Part shown: in pieces, positions 8,984 to 62,162 of the stretch
Layout of the letters: each line of letters starts with the position of its first letter
Position numbering within the stretch: position 1 is the stretch's first letter
Assembly: GCA_018402545.1 (NCBI GenBank)
Contig: JAGYIL010000001.1
Coordinates: forward strand, 2,294,001 to 2,358,000
Reading direction: 5' to 3'
From: Saccharospirillum sp.
Lineage (GTDB): Bacteria; Pseudomonadota; Gammaproteobacteria; Pseudomonadales; Natronospirillaceae
Length of the DNA: 64,000 bases
Notes under the pieces: generated by a model
What the model saw: only the letters and a program-made list of their open reading frames with translations
What the model was told of the DNA's origin: nothing
Database searches by the model: none
Made by a program: the position numbers and the translations under genes

Positions 8984-8987
8984 ATTT

Positions 8988-9055
8988 GAGCTGCGAGCTA
9001 CGAGCTGTTAGCTGTTAGCTCGCAGCTCTAAGCTCTAAGCTCGAAGCTCAAAACT
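8988..9055. repeat. AGCT-rich repeat tract after fleQ
   Basis: About 68 bases made of variants of GAGCT(G/A)(C/T)GAGCTA, beginning at the fleQ stop codon and ending 4 bases from the fleS RpoN promoter. GAGCTGCGAGCTA at 8988-9000 is exactly complementary to TAGCTCGCAGCTC at 9016-9028, giving a 13-bp stem with a 15-base loop. It shares 13-mer and 10-mer words with tracts at 31203 and 27577. Confidence 0.85.
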
Positions 9056-52687: not shown

Positions 52688-52748
52688 GTGAACTAACGAC
52701 TCAGCTCGGAGTTCAGGTCAGTTGGGAAGCATTGGCCCGCACCGGGCA

Positions 52749-52818
52749 CCGGGGTAGCCCTTGTGGGGCCTAGACCGCAACGTCCATGTTGCGGACTTCC
52801 CCACAAGGGCTACCCCGG
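52749..52818 (+). repeat. modular long palindrome, copy 1 (short form)
   Basis: Left arm CCGGGGTAGCCCTTGTGGGG (52749-52768) and right arm at 52799-52818 are perfect 20-bp complements. Inside are CCTAGA, then the stem CCGCAAC-GTCCAT-GTTGCGG (52775-52794), then ACTT. It lies between the convergent response regulator and kinase genes. Relative to copy 2 it lacks a 23-base segment flanked by GGGG. No U-tract. Confidence 0.9.
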
Positions 52819-52862
52819 CACCCGCCGCTCGTTTATTCAGCAATCTCTGACAATTGAATTGA

Positions 52863-55800
52863 CTACCGCAACAAAGACGCCAGTAAAGCCCTCAATTGCA
52901 GTGGCCGCACCGGTTTTTTCAGTAATCGATAGCCCCGCTTCTCGATCGCCTGGCGCACCTCTTCCGTGTAATCGGCCGTGATCATAATCACCGGCACGTC
53001 GGCCAGCCCCCGGTTGTGCCAGTCTTCCAGTACGCTTAGCCCGGTTAAGGTCTGATCCAGATGGTAATCCATCACGATCAGGTCCGGCTTATGCTCGCAG
53101 GCCATATCCCAGGCCTGTTCCGGCTGGCTGGCCACCGAAACACTGAAGCCCCATTCGGCCAACAGACTGTTCATGCCTTCAACAATCTGTACTTCATTAT
53201 CGACACAGAGAATGTGATACCCCTGGTGGGAACCAGCCGCCGGCACGGCTAATTTACCCGTCGCTATGCCAGCAGCGGCCAGCGGCAATTCAATGCCAAA
53301 CATACTGCCCTGCCCCAGCTCGCTGCGCACCGTAACCGGGTGCTCGAGCAGCACCGATAAACGCCGCACAATGGCCAGGCCCAACCCAAGGCCGCGCTCT
53401 TCACTCCGGGTATCCGGTAGACGATGAAACTCCTCGAACACCTCGGACTGTTGTTTTTCGGTCAGGCCCGGGCCGGTATCCCAGACTTCAATGCGACAGC
53501 GAGCGCCATGCCGCCGAACCCCCAAAGTAACCCGGCCGCGCTGGCTGTAACGCAAGGCATTACTGAGCAGATTTTGCAGCATGCGCCGCAACAGCCGGGC
53601 ATCGCTGTGTACCCATAGCGAAGTTCTGACGAAGGTCAGGTGAATGCCCCGGTCTCGCGCCAGCACGTCAAATTCTTCGTGCAGAGAGGCCAGCACGCTG
53701 GCCAGGGAAATGGTTTCCGGGTTCGGATGAATGATGTGCGAATCCAGCTTGGAAATTTCGAGCAATTCACCCAGCAAGTTATCGGCCGAGTGCAAGGAGC
53801 GTTCGATCTGTTCGGCCAGGCCAAGCAGTTCAGGCGTCTGATCCAGGCGCCGCAGCTTGGCTTGCAGACTCGCGGCAAACAGGGCTGCCGAATTCAGCGG
53901 CTGCACCAGATCGTGCCCGGCGGCAGCCAGAAAGCGGGTTTTATTGGTGTTGGCTTTTTCCAGTTCGGTGTTGGTCAGCTGCAGTGCTTCGGTGCGTTCG
54001 GAGACTTTTTCTTCCAATAGATCGTTACTGCGGCGCAGCTGATCTTCAATACGGCGGCGATCGGTAATGTCTGAATATACCGTGATGTAACCCCCATCAG
54101 GCATCGGGTTACCCTGAATTTCCAGGTAACTGCCATCCGGCCGTTTGCGCTCAATCCGGTAGGAAGACCCTGCTTTCAGGTGGCCCAGGCGCCGCTCTAC
54201 CAGTTCGTCAACGTCCCCGTCGCCCAGTTCGCCTTTCACTGCGTTATGCCGCAGCAGAGCCTCGACCGGCTGTCCGGCTTGCAGCATGCCCTCCGGGTAG
54301 CGAAACATGCGCTGGTATTCCTGATTCCAGGCCACGATGTTCAGATCACGATCAACAATGCTGATGCCCTGACTGATCGACTGCAGCGCCGAGTTGAGCA
54401 AGTCACGATTGAACTTCAGCACCTGTGAGGCTTCATCCACCATGGTCGACAGATGCCGCCACTGGCCGGTCATCGGCTGATCGAACCGTTCAAACAACAA
54501 GCGGGTGGCAGGTGCACCCAGCACAGACGACAGCGAACGCTCGGCCTGGTAAAGCAAATCGTCATCGGCAGTGTGGTCGGTCAGTAAACGGCCATTGAGC
54601 GGGTTGGTGTAGCGCGAGAACAACCGGTGCAGTTTGTCGGCGCCAATAAAACGCCCCAGCAACAGGTGCAGATCACCAATTGACACAGTTCGACTGGCGT
54701 TCTGCAGCAAGCCCGAATCGGACCGGTTGGCGTGCACAAACAGCGAGGCCTGCATCCGGTCTTTCAGGGTTTCGCGGCCAAAAGCAGAGCCAAGCAACAG
54801 CCCCAGTACGTTCAGCGCCAGGCTCCAGGCGGTGCCGTGCACAATGGGGTCTAGCCCCTCAACACCCATCAAGGCCTGAGGCCGCAGAAAGCTCAGGCCA
54901 AACAGGCCGTCCATCAAGGTATCGGGCATCAGGCCGGCACGAATCAGTAACGGAATCAGCAAGGTATAAAACCAGACCGCTGACCCAAGCCCCAGCCCCC
55001 ATAACACGCCCTTCCGGTTCATCGCGGTCCAGTACAGGCCCAGAAATAACGCCGGTGCAAACTGTGCAACGGCAACAAATGAGACCAGACCAATCGCCAC
55101 CAGCCCTTCAAAGGCAACGATCAGCCGGTAATAGAAAAAGGCGGCCAGCACGATGAGCATGATGCCCAAACGACGCAACCAGACGACCCGGCGGCCAAGA
55201 TTGGGCGCATCGGCAGACCACCAGCCAAGTCGAATCAACCCGGGCAAGAGAATTTCGTTCGAGAGCATGGTGCTGAGCGCAATATTGGCCACAATCACCA
55301 TCGACGTCGCCGCCGACAAACCACCGATAAAGGCCAGGACCACCAGATCATCCCGCCCCATCATCATCGGCAGAATCAGCGTCATGTATTCCAGTTGCTC
55401 GGGATTGGTCGAAAAGTACTCGTACCCGACCAGCACCATGGGCAGCACAAAAAGGTTAATCAGCACCAGGTAGAGCGGGAAAATCCAGCGCGCCATGCGC
55501 AGGTCGCGCTCATCCCGGTATTCAACGACGGCCACATGAAATTGCCGTGGCAGAGCGATGATGGCGACAACCCCCAGCATCACCTGGGTAGTGTAAATAT
55601 AAGGGCTACTGAAATCGGTCATGATCGACCAGATCTCGGGAGTATTCACCGCCGTTTTAACAACCTCGGCAAAGCCACCACCAACGGCATAGACCGCCCA
55701 GTAGCCCAACACCAGAAAGGCAAAGAGTTTGACCACCGATTCAAAGGCTATCGCCAGCATCATGCCGGGGTGGTGTTCAGAGGTATCCAGATGACGGGTG

Positions 55801-56315
55801 CCAAACAGAAGCGTAAACAGCCCAAGAATCAAGGAAACATAAAGTGCCGAGTCGTTATACCAATACTCGCCCGCGGTGATCGTTGGCGCGACCACGTTAA
55901 AACTCACCGAGATGGCTTTCAACTGAAGCGCAACGTAGGGCACGATCCCGACCAGGGAGATCAACGCAACAAACACCGCGACAGCCCGGCTATGCCCGAA
56001 CCGACTGGCAATAAAGTCGGCAATGGTGGTCACGTTCTCGCGTTTGGCGACCTGCACCACTTTTAGCAGAAACGCATAACCCACCAGAAACAGCAGAATG
56101 GCACCAACATGCGAAGGCGCAAAGGCCCAGCCATATTCGGCAAACTGACGAGTAGCCCCGTAGAATGTCCAACTGGTGCAATAGACCGCCAACGACAGGC
56201 TGTACACCCAGGGCTGCCAGCGACGGGCGACCGGATGCCGGTCACCATAGAGTGCGATGACGAACAACAGGATGACGTAGAGCAGCGAAATAAGGATGAA
56301 AAACGTCGGTGACAT
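52863..56315 (-). CDS. sodium:solute symporter-fused hybrid histidine kinase, CrbS/MxtR type
   Basis: Protein of 1150 aa. Residues about 1-540 are a 13-helix SLC5/SSS-type transporter domain (PTFFILISLLYVILLFVIAL). A PAS domain (LNSALQSISQGISIVDRDLN) and coiled coil follow. HisKA has the phospho-His at about 801 in AAGHDLVQPLNSAAL, and HATPase has WDTGPGLTEKQ and GLGLGLAIVRR. The C-terminal receiver has Asp about 1083 in IVMDYHLDQTLTG. It is of the CbrA/CrbS class, probably sensing a transported carboxylate or amino acid. Partner: the convergent LuxR-type regulator. Confidence 0.94.
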   Translation of the reverse strand: MSPTFFILISLLYVILLFVIALYGDRHPVARRWQPWVYSLSLAVYCTSWTFYGATRQFAEYGWAFAPSHVGAILLFLVGYAFLLKVVQVAKRENVTTIADFIASRFGHSRAVAVFVALISLVGIVPYVALQLKAISVSFNVVAPTITAGEYWYNDSALYVSLILGLFTLLFGTRHLDTSEHHPGMMLAIAFESVVKLFAFLVLGYWAVYAVGGGFAEVVKTAVNTPEIWSIMTDFSSPYIYTTQVMLGVVAIIALPRQFHVAVVEYRDERDLRMARWIFPLYLVLINLFVLPMVLVGYEYFSTNPEQLEYMTLILPMMMGRDDLVVLAFIGGLSAATSMVIVANIALSTMLSNEILLPGLIRLGWWSADAPNLGRRVVWLRRLGIMLIVLAAFFYYRLIVAFEGLVAIGLVSFVAVAQFAPALFLGLYWTAMNRKGVLWGLGLGSAVWFYTLLIPLLIRAGLMPDTLMDGLFGLSFLRPQALMGVEGLDPIVHGTAWSLALNVLGLLLGSAFGRETLKDRMQASLFVHANRSDSGLLQNASRTVSIGDLHLLLGRFIGADKLHRLFSRYTNPLNGRLLTDHTADDDLLYQAERSLSSVLGAPATRLLFERFDQPMTGQWRHLSTMVDEASQVLKFNRDLLNSALQSISQGISIVDRDLNIVAWNQEYQRMFRYPEGMLQAGQPVEALLRHNAVKGELGDGDVDELVERRLGHLKAGSSYRIERKRPDGSYLEIQGNPMPDGGYITVYSDITDRRRIEDQLRRSNDLLEEKVSERTEALQLTNTELEKANTNKTRFLAAAGHDLVQPLNSAALFAASLQAKLRRLDQTPELLGLAEQIERSLHSADNLLGELLEISKLDSHIIHPNPETISLASVLASLHEEFDVLARDRGIHLTFVRTSLWVHSDARLLRRMLQNLLSNALRYSQRGRVTLGVRRHGARCRIEVWDTGPGLTEKQQSEVFEEFHRLPDTRSEERGLGLGLAIVRRLSVLLEHPVTVRSELGQGSMFGIELPLAAAGIATGKLAVPAAGSHQGYHILCVDNEVQIVEGMNSLLAEWGFSVSVASQPEQAWDMACEHKPDLIVMDYHLDQTLTGLSVLEDWHNRGLADVPVIMITADYTEEVRQAIEKRGYRLLKKPVRPLQLRALLASLLR

Positions 56316-56411
56316 CCGGGGCTTGGTCCTGTGTCAGTCAGAATTTAAATCGTGGGAAGCGAGACAGACTTGGTGAAACACTACCTTTTGCCACCTGAGC
56401 AGTGCCGGCTG

Positions 56412-56575
56412 CCGGGTTGCTCTGTCTGGGGAGGTCCGCAGCAGGGACTAAAACGCCAGGAGCGTTTTAGCATGAGCGGAGCGAACCCGAAGGGTGAATC
56501 CCACGGATGGGATTCATATCCTGCGGTCCAGGCCCCATGGACGGGTTCACGCCGGCCCCAGACAGAGCAACCCGG
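56412..56575 (-). repeat. modular long palindrome, copy 3 (long form, minus orientation)
   Basis: Outer arms CCGGGTTGCTCTGTCTGGGG (56412-56431) and 56556-56575 are perfect 20-bp complements. On the minus strand it shows the shared CCGGCGTGAACCCGTCCATG segment, then GGGGCCTGGA and CCGCAG. In place of the simple core is an insert of about 75 bases with two perfect 9-bp hairpins: TGAATCCCA/TGGGATTCA (56495-56516) and CTAAAACGC/GCGTTTTAG (56448-56470). It lies 39 bases past the acyl-CoA ligase stop, in that gene's orientation. Confidence 0.9.
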
Positions 56576-56613
56576 TGGCTGGCACGGCAAACAACCCCAG
56601 GGCCAACTCGTGT

Positions 56614-58245
56614 TCAGGCTTTGTCTCGCTCCACCAGATAATCCCGGTAGTCGTCGCGAATGTCTACCTTGCGCAGTTTTCCAGTGCCGGTATGCGGCAA
56701 GCTGTCGACCTGGATGATAGCATCTGGCAGCCACCATTTGGCGACGCGTTCTGCCAATACCTTGCGCAGGCGAGCTTCATCGAGGGTTTTACCGGCACGA
56801 ATCGTCACCAGCATTAGCGGGCGTTCATCCCATTTTGGGTGGGTGGCGCCGATCACGCAGGCTTCGTTAATGGCGTCGTCGTGCAGGGCAGCATTTTCCA
56901 GCTCAACCGAACTGATCCACTCGCCTCCGGATTTGATCACATCCTTGCTGCGATCCACCACGCGCAGATAGCCCTGGGGGTTAATAACGGCTACGTCACC
57001 GGTATCGAACCAGCCATCGATAAACTTGTCTTTGCCCTCGCCCTTGAAATACTGGGCTAGCACCCAGGGGCCCCGGCAGCGCAGGTTGCCCCGGGTTCTG
57101 CCGTCATGCGGCAAGGGGCGACCTGCTTCATCAAAGATCTCGATTTCCACACCCAGCATCGGGCGCCCGGCCGAGCTTTGCAGTTCGTAGCGCTGTTCAT
57201 CTGGCATGGCGTCCATCTGCGGTGTGCGATTCGCGGCTGTCGCCAGTGGGCTGGTCTCGGTCATGCCCCAGATGCCCATCCAGTAGACGTCGTAGAGCTT
57301 GTCGTAAATCTCGACCAGACTCAGTGGCGATGCCGCCCCGCCGACGCCGATTACCTTCAGTGAATCGATCGTCTTGCCGCTCTGCTGAAGATAATTGTGC
57401 AGGTTCAGCCAAACGGTCGGTACCGCAAAGGCCTGATTGACCGACTCCTCCTCAATCAGAGACTGCAAGCTCTCACCATCGAGGTTGCCGCCCGGCAACA
57501 CCAGTTTGGCGCCATACAGCGGTGCTGAAAACGGTACGCCCCAGGCACAGACGTGGTACATGGGTACTACCGGCATGGCGACCGACCGTTCTGTGAAATC
57601 GAGATACTGGCTGGAGCCGCTCATCATCGCATGCAACACGGTCGAGCCCTGCTCGTACATAACCCCCTTGGGGTTGCCGGTCGTGCCGCTGGTGTAGCAA
57701 AGTCCACAAGGGGCATCGGACGGCAGGCGCGGCCAGTGAAATTCCGTCGGCATCTGGGCCAGCAAGTGCTCGTAGTTATCCAGGGTCAGTACACTGGATT
57801 CGGGCATTTTGTCTTCATCACACAGCACTACGAACCGTTCAACACTGCGAATCTGGTCGGCAACCTCTTCCAGCAGAGGCAGAAACTCCGGATCCAAAAA
57901 AACCCAACGGTCTTCGGCGTGGTTGATAATGTATTGCAACTGCTCACTGAACAGCCGCGCATTGAGGGTGTGTACAACCGCCCCCATGCCAGAAATACCG
58001 AAATACAGCTCCAGGTGGCGATAGTGATTTACTGCCAATGTGGCCACCCGGTCGCCACTTTGAATACCGGAGCGCGCCAGCAGGTGGGCAACCTGGGCCG
58101 ACCGATGCAGCGCATCCCGATAGAGGTAGCGATGCCGGCTGCCATCTGTCATCGCAGAAACTATGCTTTGCTCGGGATAACGTTGCGCTGCATTGCGTAG
58201 AATATCGCTGGTATTCAGCGGGTGAATCATCATGTTGCCAGCCAT
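56614..58245 (-). CDS. AMP-forming acyl-CoA ligase, AlkK/DmdB-like
   Basis: Adenylate-forming ligase of 543 aa. Motifs include the P-loop YTSGTTGNPKGVMYEQGSTV, MGIWGMTETSPLA, GWFDTGDVAVINPQGYLRVV and the catalytic Lys in HTGTGKLRKVDIRD. The sequence HTLNARLFSEQLQYIINHAE and VPMYHVCAWGVPFSAPLYGA matches the medium-chain ligase AlkK and the DMSP-pathway ligase DmdB; the substrate cannot be told. It is not a short-chain Acs. AGGAG lies 8 bases before the ATG. Neighbouring CrbS/CrbR could regulate it, which is inference. Confidence 0.9.
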   Translation of the reverse strand: MAGNMMIHPLNTSDILRNAAQRYPEQSIVSAMTDGSRHRYLYRDALHRSAQVAHLLARSGIQSGDRVATLAVNHYRHLELYFGISGMGAVVHTLNARLFSEQLQYIINHAEDRWVFLDPEFLPLLEEVADQIRSVERFVVLCDEDKMPESSVLTLDNYEHLLAQMPTEFHWPRLPSDAPCGLCYTSGTTGNPKGVMYEQGSTVLHAMMSGSSQYLDFTERSVAMPVVPMYHVCAWGVPFSAPLYGAKLVLPGGNLDGESLQSLIEEESVNQAFAVPTVWLNLHNYLQQSGKTIDSLKVIGVGGAASPLSLVEIYDKLYDVYWMGIWGMTETSPLATAANRTPQMDAMPDEQRYELQSSAGRPMLGVEIEIFDEAGRPLPHDGRTRGNLRCRGPWVLAQYFKGEGKDKFIDGWFDTGDVAVINPQGYLRVVDRSKDVIKSGGEWISSVELENAALHDDAINEACVIGATHPKWDERPLMLVTIRAGKTLDEARLRKVLAERVAKWWLPDAIIQVDSLPHTGTGKLRKVDIRDDYRDYLVERDKA

Positions 58246-58378
58246 CCCAGGTCTCCTGTTGACAGCAATGTCCGGTGTCGGGTCTGCCCGAAAAAGTGCA
58301 GGCCTTTAACAATTAGGGTAGATGCTACCAGTGTAGAGACCGGGCCCGGCCAGACCCATCGGCGAATAGTAGGAGGCG

Positions 58379-58397
58379 CCCTCACCCAGAGTGAGGG
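58379..58397. terminator. hairpin in the ligase-binding protein spacer
   Basis: CCCTCAC (58379-58385) pairs with GTGAGGG (58391-58397), framed by GGCGAA (58361) and TTCGCC (58398). It lies downstream of the binding-protein gene (minus strand). No strong U-tract. Confidence 0.45.
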
Positions 58398-58482
58398 TTC
58401 GCCTGGAACAGCGGCGGATGATGAGTTGCTCTGGTTGACGCAACGCCGCCCAGAGATTAACAAGTCACCAGCAGGCAGGCGC

Positions 58483-59667
58483 TCAGCGGCCTAGCGGGAC
58501 GTCCATATCATCCAGGGTGAGCTCGCGCATCAGTTCAGGGATAGCCCATTCAACGTCCTCTTCAGCACTGAGGCGGAAGTGATACATCGATTGCAGGGCC
58601 TGGTGGTCCTCTGCTCGGAACAACATTTCACCCTTGGGCGTATCAAAGCGCATGCCTTCCATGGTGCTGATCAGTTCCTCTGTGTCGGTTGAGCCCGCAC
58701 GGCGAATCGCTTCAACGGCGGCGATACCCGCTGCCATACCACCGGCGGCAAAAAAATCTGGTGGCGTGCCAAAGCGCTCCAGGTGGTGTTCGACCAGCCA
58801 TTGGTTGATGTCGTTGCCCGGAGTCTCGTAGTAGTAATAGATAGCCCCTTCGAGACCGACAAATGGCTTGTAGCGAACCAGGCCCGACAAATTAGTGCCA
58901 CTGGCTGCAAACCGAATGTCGTGACGTTCGGGGTTCATCGCCTGCAGTTCAGCCATGGGGTTGCCACCACCGGCCCAATAGAAAAACACGACCCGGTCGC
59001 CTTCTGCATCTTGCAACTCGTCAAAAATGCGCTGACCCGCTGCGGTGAAATCGGTGGTATCGGCCGGCACGTACTCTTCGTGCACCACTTCGGCACCGGT
59101 ACCGGCCAGTGCATCGCGAAAGGCAGTGATACCATCACGACCATAGGCGTAGTCTTGGGCCAGCGTCGCAATCTTCACCCCCGGGCGGCCAATGGCGACC
59201 GCGTTGGCAACGGCATCCTGCATCGCATTGCGACCCGTTCTGAAAATATAGCGGTTGCCGTCGTCTCCGGTTACGGCGTCGGCCATGGCTGGTTCAACGA
59301 TCAATATTTTCTCAAATGCTTCAGCCACGGGCAGCATGGCCAGTGCTACGCTGGAAGACATCGGCCCAACCGCCAGGTCTGCATTGTCGTCAGCGTAGGC
59401 TTCTTCGAGCAGCGCACGGCCTTTGGCCGGGTCCAGCCCGGTGTCTTTCTCGATGACTTCAATGGCCCGGCCATCGACTTCAAAGGTACCGTTTGTGGCG
59501 TATTCGAGCCCCAGCATGAGGCCATTGTGGCTCTGCCTGGCATAGGCTTCAAAGGGCCCGGTTTTGCCGTAAACATGGGCAATTTTAATCGGTTCTGCCT
59601 GTAACGTGGCGCTGAGCAACAGAGGTAAGGCGATCATAGCCCAGTGGGCTATGCGAAGGGGTTGCAT
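58483..59667 (-). CDS. LIV-type ABC transporter periplasmic substrate-binding protein
   Basis: Protein of 394 aa with a cleavable signal peptide (IALPLLLSATLQAEP, cleavage after LQA). The type I periplasmic-binding fold of branched-chain amino-acid/amide receptors is seen in IKIAHVYGKTGPFEAYARQS, AVGPMSSSVALAMLPVAEAF and IATLAQDYAYGRDGITAF. No permease or ATPase gene is adjacent, so it is an orphan that may serve a distant transporter or a chemoreceptor. AGGAG lies 6 bases before the ATG. Confidence 0.92.
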   Translation of the reverse strand: MQPLRIAHWAMIALPLLLSATLQAEPIKIAHVYGKTGPFEAYARQSHNGLMLGLEYATNGTFEVDGRAIEVIEKDTGLDPAKGRALLEEAYADDNADLAVGPMSSSVALAMLPVAEAFEKILIVEPAMADAVTGDDGNRYIFRTGRNAMQDAVANAVAIGRPGVKIATLAQDYAYGRDGITAFRDALAGTGAEVVHEEYVPADTTDFTAAGQRIFDELQDAEGDRVVFFYWAGGGNPMAELQAMNPERHDIRFAASGTNLSGLVRYKPFVGLEGAIYYYYETPGNDINQWLVEHHLERFGTPPDFFAAGGMAAGIAAVEAIRRAGSTDTEELISTMEGMRFDTPKGEMLFRAEDHQALQSMYHFRLSAEEDVEWAIPELMRELTLDDMDVPLGR

Positions 59668-59689
59668 GAATCTCTCCTGTTTCTTTGCT

Positions 59690-59715
59690 TCAAGAATCTA
59701 CTAAACTGCCGATAT
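59690..59715 (+). promoter_or_regulatory. candidate FliA promoter of the chemoreceptor gene
   Basis: TCAAG (59690-59694), 13 bases, GCCGATAT (59708-59715). The -10 is near-perfect and the spacer one base shorter than in flgM. The gene starts 256 bases downstream, a long leader, so the link is tentative. The rest of the 304-base gap (59668-59971) shows no gene. Confidence 0.5.
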
Positions 59716-59971
59716 AGACAGACGTCTGCAACGACTTAATGGCCGGTAGACCCGAACAATAACGACAATGATTGGCTAACGGGATGCCGAAGCAACGGTT
59801 AGCTTTCAACCTGCCAGGGTAACGTCTGCCATGAACGCGCCGGTGCCGGCATCATTTACTGATTACCACCAGTAAGCCCTAATGGCCCGACCAGCGGTTG
59901 CCCAGGTAACAGGCCGCAGTGCAGCAACATTGTTTTAATCACAATACTATCTCGCCGGTGGAGCTTGATCT

Positions 59972-61993
59972 ATGAAAATCACGGTTGTAATGAAAACAGC
60001 TCTGGGCTTTGGCCTGATGCTCCTGCTCATCATTGGCATATCCCTGACTGCACTGACCAACCAGGCGTCCATCGCCAGTCTGTTTCGCATCACTACCGAT
60101 GAGGTCGTTCCTCAGGTAGAAAACGCCTTCGAACTGGTCATCAGTATCCAGAATGCCAACAAGGCAGTCTCGCAGCATGCGGCGGTTGAATCAGAAGACG
60201 CCCTGGCGCGCTACGAAGCGGATTTTGAAACGGCACTGGTTGAAGTAGACCGTCTGAACCAGCAACTGAGTGATCGGTTAATCAATGCACCCGAGCTGCA
60301 GGAACAACTGTCAGCCGCCTACTCCAATGTGAACGAAGCCATGGCACTGGCAGCAGAGCACCTGAGCACCCGGCGCACCGTTCTCGACAGCCGGGCCTCC
60401 TTTCTGTCGGAATTTCAGACTCAGAATTCGCGCTGGCTGACCTATACCAACGATATGAAAATTGTCGACCGGGTGCTGGAAAACCTGGCCATGGAGACCG
60501 ACTCGGTCTCACGCCAGGTTGGCGCAGATGCAACTTATGTTCTGGATAGAATTGCACTTATCCGGTCAGGTGTCGGCGGTATCACCGGGCTTTCCAGCGC
60601 CGAACAGGTCGATAATGTACAAGCGGGTCTTCAACGGGAAATCGAACGTGCCGACACTCGCATGGAACGGCTGGAAAGCAATAACGAGATTCTGTTTCGC
60701 TACCTGTCGACCTATATGGATCTGCTCAGAACGGCGGTAAGCGGAGAAACCGGTACCCTGCCCCGGTATCGTGCCTCTCTGGCTGCCAGCGAACTCAGTA
60801 CCCTGCAGTTGGGTCAACTGGCCGACAGCATCAACCGCAGTGTTGATGCATTAACCGAACTGTCGGTCGACTTGTCCAACCGGCGTGTGGCGCTGGCCAG
60901 CGAGGTGACCTCTGCCAATCATCAAGCGGCGCTGACGGTTTGGGGGGTATTGGGCGCTTCGATTCTGGTGGCCTTGCTGGTAATGGCGTCGCTGATTCGC
61001 AGTATTCGGACGCCGCTTAAGCGCATTACCGAGGTGCTGCACGCGGTCGCCACCGGTGACCTGACTCAGAAGATGAAGATCACCTCCCAGGATGAATTCG
61101 GGCAAATTTCTGCTGGCATCAACGAGTTGGTGGAACAAACACAGGCCGTTATTCGTGACATTACCAGAGCCTCCGGCGAGGTCGATTCCGTTACGCAACA
61201 GGTAACGGAAACCACACGTTCCAGCTCGACCAAGTTGCTGCGCCAGAAGGATCAGTCAGCTTCCATCGCCACCGCTGTGACAGAGATGACCGCAGCAGCC
61301 AGCCATATTTCCGACAATGCCAATGACACTCTGGTTCAGGTGGAGGCAGTGAACGAATCGGCATCGGAAGGTCAGGCAAACATGAATGCCAGCCGCGAAG
61401 TGATCAGCAGTTTGCTGGAGGAAATACACTCAACCAGCGACGTAGTATCTGAACTGCAGCAGGAGTCGAGCAACATTGGCAAGATTCTGGAGGTGATTCA
61501 AAACATTGCGGAGCAAACCAATCTACTGGCGTTGAATGCGGCGATCGAGGCGGCCCGGGCGGGTGAACAGGGTCGCGGCTTTGCGGTTGTGGCCGATGAA
61601 GTGCGCAGCCTGGCCAGCAAGACCCAGCAGTCTACTGAAGAAATCTACCAGATGATCGACCGGCTACAACAACGCGCCAATCAGGCGGTAGCCCGCATGG
61701 GCACCAATCGCGACAAGGCTGAATCGCTGGTTACCCAGGCCGACAATACCGACAAGTCCATTCAAACTATTCTGGACAGTTTGGGCAGCATCACCGACAT
61801 GAGCCGGATGATCGCGGAAGGCACATCCGAGCAACAAAAGGCGGCAGAGTCCGTTTCGGAAACCATTCAGGAAATTGCGGAATTATCCGACGCGATCTAT
61901 TCCAACGCGCGCCGCAACGTATCCAACTTCGAACAACTGAACACGTTAGTCCAGCAACAGAAAACGTCAGTAAGCCGCTTCAAATACGACTGA
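59972..61993 (+). CDS. methyl-accepting chemotaxis protein
   Basis: Chemoreceptor of 673 aa. TM1 (about 8-28), a helical periplasmic domain of about 290 aa, TM2 ([20 protein letters not shown], about 322-342), HAMP ([20 protein letters not shown]), then a long signalling coiled coil. The conserved tip is [40 protein letters not shown]. No C-terminal CheR/CheB tether pentapeptide is visible; it ends SVSRFKYD. The long all-helical ligand domain suggests a four-helix type. It is near the orphan LIV-type binding protein but divergent from it. Confidence 0.95.
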
Positions 61994-62020
61994 ATCAGTG
62001 CCGAGAGCCCGTGCCAGCAG

Positions 62021-62113
62021 CCGGGTATACCTCTCCGGGGTCGGCGTGAACCCATCCATGGGGCCTAGACCGCAACATCCATGTTGCGGACTTCCCCGGA
62101 GAGGTATACCCGG
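62021..62113 (+). repeat. modular long palindrome, copy 2 (intermediate form)
   Basis: Arms CCGGGTATACCTCTCCGGGG (62021-62040) and 62094-62113 are perfect 20-bp complements. Inside are a 23-base segment (TCGGCGTGAACCCATCCATG then GGG), CCTAGA, the stem CCGCAAC-ATCCAT-GTTGCGG (62070-62089) and ACTT. It starts 28 bases past the chemoreceptor stop and lies between convergent chemoreceptor and fpr genes. Confidence 0.9.
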
Positions 62114-62162
62114 CAGCCAGCACTCAGCATGTGGTCGCTCCTGGCATACTGACGGCAATAAA

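Follow-up and report, generated by a model that had tools for sequence, protein, structure and literature searches.

The TwoAYGGAY RNA (Rfam family RF01731) was presented in 2010 as a candidate, and probable, RNA of unknown role in the human gut, gammaproteobacteria and Clostridiales (PMC2864571). Binding by CsrA has been proposed for it, and its external stem is described as poorly conserved (PMC4333381); ANGGA is given as the CsrA motif (PMC9788540). In this work we have analysed a 64-kb stretch (hereafter the window) of the draft genome of a Saccharospirillum sp. (4.25 Mb, 11 contigs), in which three long palindromes, named here copies 52749, 56412 and 62021 after the first position of their arms, carry loops that read GGA on one strand. 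They are best read as members of a dispersed family of structured-RNA elements of the TwoAYGGAY type, which belong to RF01731 or to a close sister and are formed on the GGA strand. The whole reading that we favour, in which this element would act as a decoy that binds CsrA/RsmA and would have spread in the manner of miniature inverted-repeat transposable elements (MITEs), is in our judgement moderately probable.

Copy number, strand and pairing of the element

On the GGA strand the element is a long stem that usually closes two ANGGA-loop hairpins, and the stem, of about 30 bp, is free in sequence and fixed in pairing. The three window copies with their flanks were the three longest inverted repeats listed for the window (lengths of 33, 30 and 26 nt, with 88, 90 and 92% complementarity). 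A preliminary description of this DNA, made from the letters alone, had placed the three elements and their layout correctly, and its observation that the arms are copy-specific and fully paired was reproduced: as read off the sequences, nine of the 20 arm positions vary among the copies, and 20/20 are paired in each. The common architecture that it proposed holds for arms and layout and less well for the interiors, since copy 52749 lacks one inner hairpin (hairpin B) and copy 56412 bears a three-hairpin module inside the other (hairpin A). The missing hairpin of copy 52749 was apparently lost by deletion between a pair of CCCCA repeats.

Two covariance models were used for the searches, R1, built from 34 copies gathered with two sequence patterns, and R2, built from a more diverse set. 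R1 detected all three copies of the window, and three in total. It scored the GGA strand far above the strand of the preliminary description, on which the loops read TCC (141 vs 45.6 bits for copy 62021, 105 vs 33.9 bits for copy 56412, and 97.8 vs 55.9 bits for copy 52749). The features of the three copies are as follows:

62001..62127, minus strand: copy 62021, complete two-loop element (R1 141, R2 124.6 bits; RF01731 33.4 bits)
62021..62040, unstranded: outer arm of copy 62021, partner 62094-62113 (inverted-repeat listing, fold)
62094..62113, unstranded: partner arm of copy 62021 (inverted-repeat listing, fold)
62070..62089, minus strand: hairpin A of copy 62021, loop AUGGAU, GGA at 62080-62078 (predicted fold and ANGGA column counts)
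62043..62065, minus strand: hairpin B of copy 62021, loop AUGGAU, GGA at 62057-62055 (predicted fold and ANGGA column counts)
52729..52832, minus strand: copy 52749, element (R1 97.8 bits; arms 52749-52768 and 52799-52818)
52775-52794, minus strand: hairpin A of copy 52749, with GGA loop; hairpin B missing
56398..56595, plus strand: copy 56412, element (R1 105 bits; arms 56412-56431 and 56556-56575)
56531..56553, plus strand: hairpin B of copy 56412, CAUGGACGGG (alignment with other copies)
56436..56526, plus strand: hairpin A stem of copy 56412, enlarged by the module (56436-56441 pairs with 56521-56526)
56448-56470, plus strand: module hairpin CUAAAACGC-CAGGA-GCGUUUUAG in copy 56412 (sequence reading)
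56495-56516, plus strand: module hairpin UGAAUCCCA-CGGA-UGGGAUUCA in copy 56412 (sequence reading)

When copy 56412 is folded whole, the minimum-energy structure pairs the stretch 56531..56553 differently from the alignment-based hairpin B. A further inverted repeat of the window (8985-9031; 22-nt arms, 86% complementary) appeared by eye to be unrelated.

The genome-wide search with a covariance model, which the preliminary description had suggested, revealed that the family extends well beyond the window. All 150 candidates that were scored with R1, out of 2344 first-look candidates, matched the model, the lowest at 92.5 bits, and many had compensated arms; since every scored candidate matched, the genome has at least 150 copies. 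When up to 3 mismatches were allowed, the pattern CCGCAACATCCATGTTGCGGACTTCCCC gave 78 matches in the genome (40 forward, 38 reverse) and none in the reversed control. Beyond the 150 places of R1, the sequence pattern added 11 and the Rfam list 16 more, the latter with E up to 10 and not all of them strong. In addition, a related GGA-loop module (CGAACCCGAAGGGTGAATCCCACGGATGGGATTCA, up to 3 mismatches; 56448-56516 in the window) was found at 42 further places of the genome, partly within longer elements that have the same terminal repeats as the family. No match was obtained by blastn with a single copy against a phage collection or a plasmid collection.

The folds of the copies were very stable, and the pairing of the arms showed strong covariation. 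In the 34 copies 98.1% of 1394 cells were paired, both sides had changed at 25 of 41 pairs, and none of 500 shuffles attained the observed value on any of five measures. A G-C pair that is hit once on DNA is equally likely to become G-U or A-C, and G-U is tolerated only by the strand that folds. On the GGA strand of the 34 copies we counted 52 G-U, 3 A-C and 24 other mismatches, with 22 of the 52 G-U coming from one wobble-rich pair. In the 120 ungapped copies (the 150 minus 30 dropped for insertions or deletions), arm columns 15-34 held 54 G-U, 4 A-C and 36 others. In other genomes, where 56 of 71 loci yielded 62 elements, the counts were 69 G-U, 10 A-C and 43 others, 15 loci having no element that passed the anchor pattern and four of the 71 belonging to the same genus; per element in this last set, 30 leaned to G-U and 5 to A-C. 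These mismatches are not independent events, as copies share ancestry, and many copies were chosen by models that accept G-U; the same skew was present in a set (A1) drawn by sequence pattern. Because G-U far exceeds A-C in the arms, the GGA strand is the selected one, and the arms are selected as a single-stranded structure on it. The selection on structure considered in the preliminary description is thus borne out, on the strand opposite to the one that it had read.

The same description had offered hairpin template switching as the process that keeps the arms matched. A mutational mechanism acting alone, whether template switching or gene conversion, would match the arms without selection, and it would be in line with two sites (C1:857109 and C1:1481167) where differing arm types lie inside the same ends and with five cores on the opposite strand, both described below. 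Strand-symmetric copying, however, should give no excess of G-U over A-C, so template switching is unneeded in view of the ratios of 54:4 and 69:10. Furthermore, between the members of the 32 nearest copy pairs, 24 changes were one-sided and of the G-U kind, 9 were one-sided of other kinds and 19 were two-sided, a pattern that fits stepwise compensation; 2 of the 19 two-sided changes were adjacent (expectation 0.9). We therefore consider a purely mutational origin of the pairing very improbable.

GGA loops and relation to TwoAYGGAY

The loops were almost invariant. Among the 120 ungapped copies, the A, G, G and A of ANGGA were kept in 118, 119, 118 and 119 copies in hairpin A, and in 120, 120, 119 and 119 copies in hairpin B; the N varied in both, and both loops were intact in 114. 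The arrangement of two adjacent GGA-loop hairpins within an outer stem was the rule in these 120 copies, window copy 52749 having one hairpin.

The preliminary description could name no described family for these palindromes. Rfam TwoAYGGAY does match copies, on the opposite strand to that description, with one undoubted copy above the gathering cut-off of 43 bits. Scanned alone, copy 62021 reached 33.4 bits with RF01731, the top of 14 Rfam rows and under the cut-off; no RF01731 row was returned for the locus that contains copy 52749 (L020), nor for window positions 56350-56620 at E ≤5. Two of six copy-bearing loci matched, on the GGA strand (L001, 38.1 bits; L024, 33.2 bits), and the remaining four (L006, L007, L016 and L020) gave no TwoAYGGAY row. 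Over the whole genome, RF01731 found 34 loci at E ≤10, two of them above the cut-off, and 14 of the 34 coincided with the 150 places of R1; in the control genomes, 1 of 14 had a match, below the cut-off. One of the two high-scoring loci, L314, lies outside the 150 scored and is without doubt a copy by R1 (121.7 bits; RF01731 47.8 bits). The other, L313 (C6:287464-287984), was matched by neither R1 nor R2 and has a long stem with two GGA-loop hairpins that form a different element; therefore the genome holds at least one more subfamily. Low-scoring matches to microRNA, phage and small RNA (sRNA) families of Rfam were treated as chance matches to long hairpins. Because of such matches, a TwoAYGGAY score below the cut-off says little by itself; what ties the family to RF01731 is L314, which exceeds the cut-off, together with the alignment of the loops. 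The link is real for some copies, but the family as a whole is poorly captured by the Rfam model.

The element was also found outside this genome. R1 matched 23 of 57 near genomes, the own genome included, and all six of the genus, with at least 61 copies in four of them and 13 and 4 copies in the other two, so that copy number within the genus goes from 4 to at least 150. R2 matched 50 of 229 genomes of the class, or 39 of the 198 good ones, with up to the best 15 matches per genome. When a degenerate core pattern was run over the named genomes, each of the 61 stretches that it matched belonged to Saccharospirillum (S. impatiens, S. salsuginis and others) or to Nitrincola alkalilacustris. Fifteen copies of G144 and five of G138 have by eye the same two-loop core with long, well-paired arms of their own, and lack the ends seen in Saccharospirillum.

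The analysed genome has one csrA gene, and CsrA was detected in 46 of the 50 element-bearing genomes of the class.

Terminal repeats, sites in relatives and gene context

Many copies are flanked by TAACTCAAGTTTCGGAGTTCG and its complement. The 19-nt terminal core, with up to 3 mismatches, was found at 130 ends, vs 2 in the reversed control, and 46 of the 150 copies had both ends within 6 mismatches of 19, with a span of 175-201 bp, most commonly 186. Four longer elements (254-301 bp) have the same ends and contain the module of copy 56412. Both terminal repeats were also seen at C1:1597304-1597412 (109 bp), around another interior, and at C1:1715149-1715236 (88 bp). A TA or longer target duplication, and insertion into the centre of older palindromes, were considered and had no support beyond AT-rich flanks.

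For 31 copies of the genome, the two neighbouring genes were also found together on a single locus of some other genome, which was that of S. impatiens in 29 cases, of S. salsuginis in one and of another member of the family in one. The relative had no core pattern at 10 of these 31 sites, and four (C1:84475, C4:45351, C1:151806 and C1:1751364) were by eye an insertion in one genome or a loss in the other. At the site of copy 62021, where the window has the full element, S. impatiens (L126) has a short palindrome made of arms only. Eight of the 31 were single copies with the same orientation in the relative, another eight belonged to adjacent pairs of which the relative has one partner or both, and at five single-copy sites the core was on the opposite strand. 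Among the last, C4:389906 and C1:272059, with similar flanks, look like an inversion of the interior; C1:858688 may be a different copy rather than an inversion, because an older copy adjoins. The flanks and ends at C1:857109 and C1:1481167 are shared with S. impatiens, which has a different arm type between them. These arm types and the five opposite-strand cores indicate that exchange or inversion among copies occurs. At one site in two congeners, L066 (G002) and L067 (G005), positions 1501-1627, showed by eye matching flanks, similar hairpins and a similar lower stem; their middle arms were entirely different, each well paired.

With 46 of 150 copies bearing terminal inverted repeats and some sites empty in S. 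impatiens, the family looks mobile, as far as sequence comparison can tell, in keeping with the non-autonomous mobile palindrome that had been one of the preliminary suggestions. Erosion of the ends had no counterpart in the arms: mispairs per 20 arm positions were 0.43 in the 14 copies with near-intact ends, 0.28 (25 copies) and 0.13 (8 copies) in the intermediate states and 0.36 in the 73 copies whose ends were near background, with no rise on erosion of the terminal repeat (Spearman -0.016). Exchange between copies may contribute to this kept pairing.

Gene context was derived from hexamer-scored open reading frames called in this analysis; seven of the 150 copies had no neighbour on the locus, and 12 shared more than 30 nt with a called frame. 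A called gene was present on each side of 143 copies, of which 47 lay in sense and 41 in antisense between co-directional genes, 42 between convergent genes and 13 between divergent genes. Mean mispairs were alike in all contexts (0.38-0.50 of 26). A terminator or other structured RNA of the 3′ untranslated region, also among the roles suggested at first, is not supported as a general role, given 47 sense and 41 antisense copies. Neighbouring pairs less than 600 bp apart among the 150 copies all had divergent GGA strands (9 of 9; for example, C4:503141-503453, C1:102042-102411 and C5:32179-32491 of this genome, G000); L314 is a tenth divergent pair, and 7 of 8 pairs in loci of relatives were divergent.

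These counts also bear on an RNA barrier or processing element, comparable to REP or Correia elements, whose stem would protect or terminate the transcripts of neighbouring genes, with the GGA loops being incidental. The intergenic position, the excess of convergent (42) over divergent (13) contexts and the very stable folds agree with such a role; nevertheless, of the 88 copies between co-directional genes, 41 run antisense to those genes and are no less well preserved, and the loops are conserved beyond the need of a barrier. We regard this explanation as improbable.

A self-spreading palindrome, in which the fold would serve its own copying through an RNA or single-stranded DNA intermediate with neither a role for CsrA nor a use for the host, deserves more weight, and is still rather unlikely in our view. 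It would account for the terminal inverted repeats, the presence and absence of copies between species, the lack of orientation bias towards genes, the strand polarity and the range of copy number, from 4 to at least 150, within one genus. On the contrary, copying alone does not predict near-invariant ANGGA loops, the arms are still paired in end-eroded copies and in all gene contexts, and the genomes outside the genus have, by eye, the core without the Saccharospirillum ends.

The favoured reading and known systems

In the TwoAYGGAY-type reading that we favour, the two ANGGA loops at the stem junction would be bound by the dimeric regulator CsrA/RsmA, and transcripts that carry the element, if made as we infer, would serve as distributed CsrA decoys or as CsrA-controlled RNA segments. 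In its spread the family would have behaved as a non-autonomous, MITE-like element. Once a copy had inserted, its ends would erode, and its fold would be retained by selection, being partly refreshed by exchange between copies. More tentatively, and with a probability clearly below even, a CsrA-decoy hairpin may have turned mobile, or the reverse, such that at least 150 sites buffer CsrA and copy number tunes the CsrA regulon.

Several results weigh against this reading. The co-occurrence with CsrA is weak evidence, because CsrA is present in 194 of the 229 genomes of the class regardless of the element, and in one element-bearing genome that is 98% complete (G250) CsrA was not recognised, the protein search giving chance-level matches or none; it was also lacking in element-bearing G063, G124 and G155 (75, 88 and 67% complete). 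A promoter scan of the GGA strand in 91 copies gave a positional peak, yet its mean was 5.96, vs 6.14 for the antisense strand and 5.69 for shuffled sequences. The folding of single-stranded DNA predicts the same mismatch polarity as that of RNA. Regarding the Rfam family, no match was obtained in the whole window at the gathering threshold, none of these elements scored as high as the gathering cut-off in the 40 loci scanned from other genomes, and 20 loci of G144 and G138 gave no TwoAYGGAY row at E ≤0.1, with unrelated hairpin families scoring 24-39 bits there. As to movement, no length or offset of target-site duplication rose above the reporting threshold in the 46 copies with both ends, whose flanks were only AT-rich, and an inspection by eye of about 100 of the 130 terminal-core matches in the own genome, which was not a systematic search, showed no transposon-sized pair of ends that could mark an autonomous partner.

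If the more tentative reading is true, a global post-transcriptional regulator would be buffered by many dispersed loci and not by a few dedicated sRNAs. If CsrA binds it, the family would amount to a regulator sponge distributed over the genome, many times larger in some congeners than in others, and how sponge dosage acts on a global regulator could be tested directly. The two-loop design occurs in about a fifth of the sampled genomes of the class, and this TwoAYGGAY-type element shows strong selection on its fold in several lineages. With TwoAYGGAY or a sister as the core of a high-copy element, hundreds of natural variants become available, with the strand fixed by wobble polarity.

In the literature searched, TwoAYGGAY was not described as a high-copy or mobile element, nothing joined CsrA, GGA and repetitive extragenic palindromic (REP) sequences, and nothing dealt with repeats and sRNA in Saccharospirillum; CsrA and miniature inverted-repeat elements co-occurred, in the text retrieved, only in the Rfam 12 paper, which makes no connection between them there.

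Bacterial MITEs such as ERIC/RU and Correia are short, intergenic, high-copy sequences with terminal inverted repeats and a long imperfect palindrome. The Saccharospirillum element shares all these traits; unlike them, it has a strongly covarying interior and conserved GGA loops, and no target duplication was found. With REP/BIME sequences it has in common the high copy number and the extragenic palindrome, and it is longer, branched and provided with two GGA loops. The sRNAs of the CsrB/RsmY/RsmZ type that sequester CsrA likewise have several GGA-loop hairpins per RNA; these are described as dedicated sRNAs, whereas the present element is dispersed, high-copy, usually two-looped and closed by a long stem, and is a candidate decoy. 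The closest likeness is to TwoAYGGAY, which has the same outer stem around two ANGGA-loop hairpins, matches through Rfam on the same strand and is, like the present element, a proposed CsrA binder (PMC4333381). The element described here differs from it in that most copies score below the Rfam cut-off, and in its copy number of at least 150, its fully paired, copy-specific arms of about 30 bp, its terminal inverted repeats and its extra hairpin modules.

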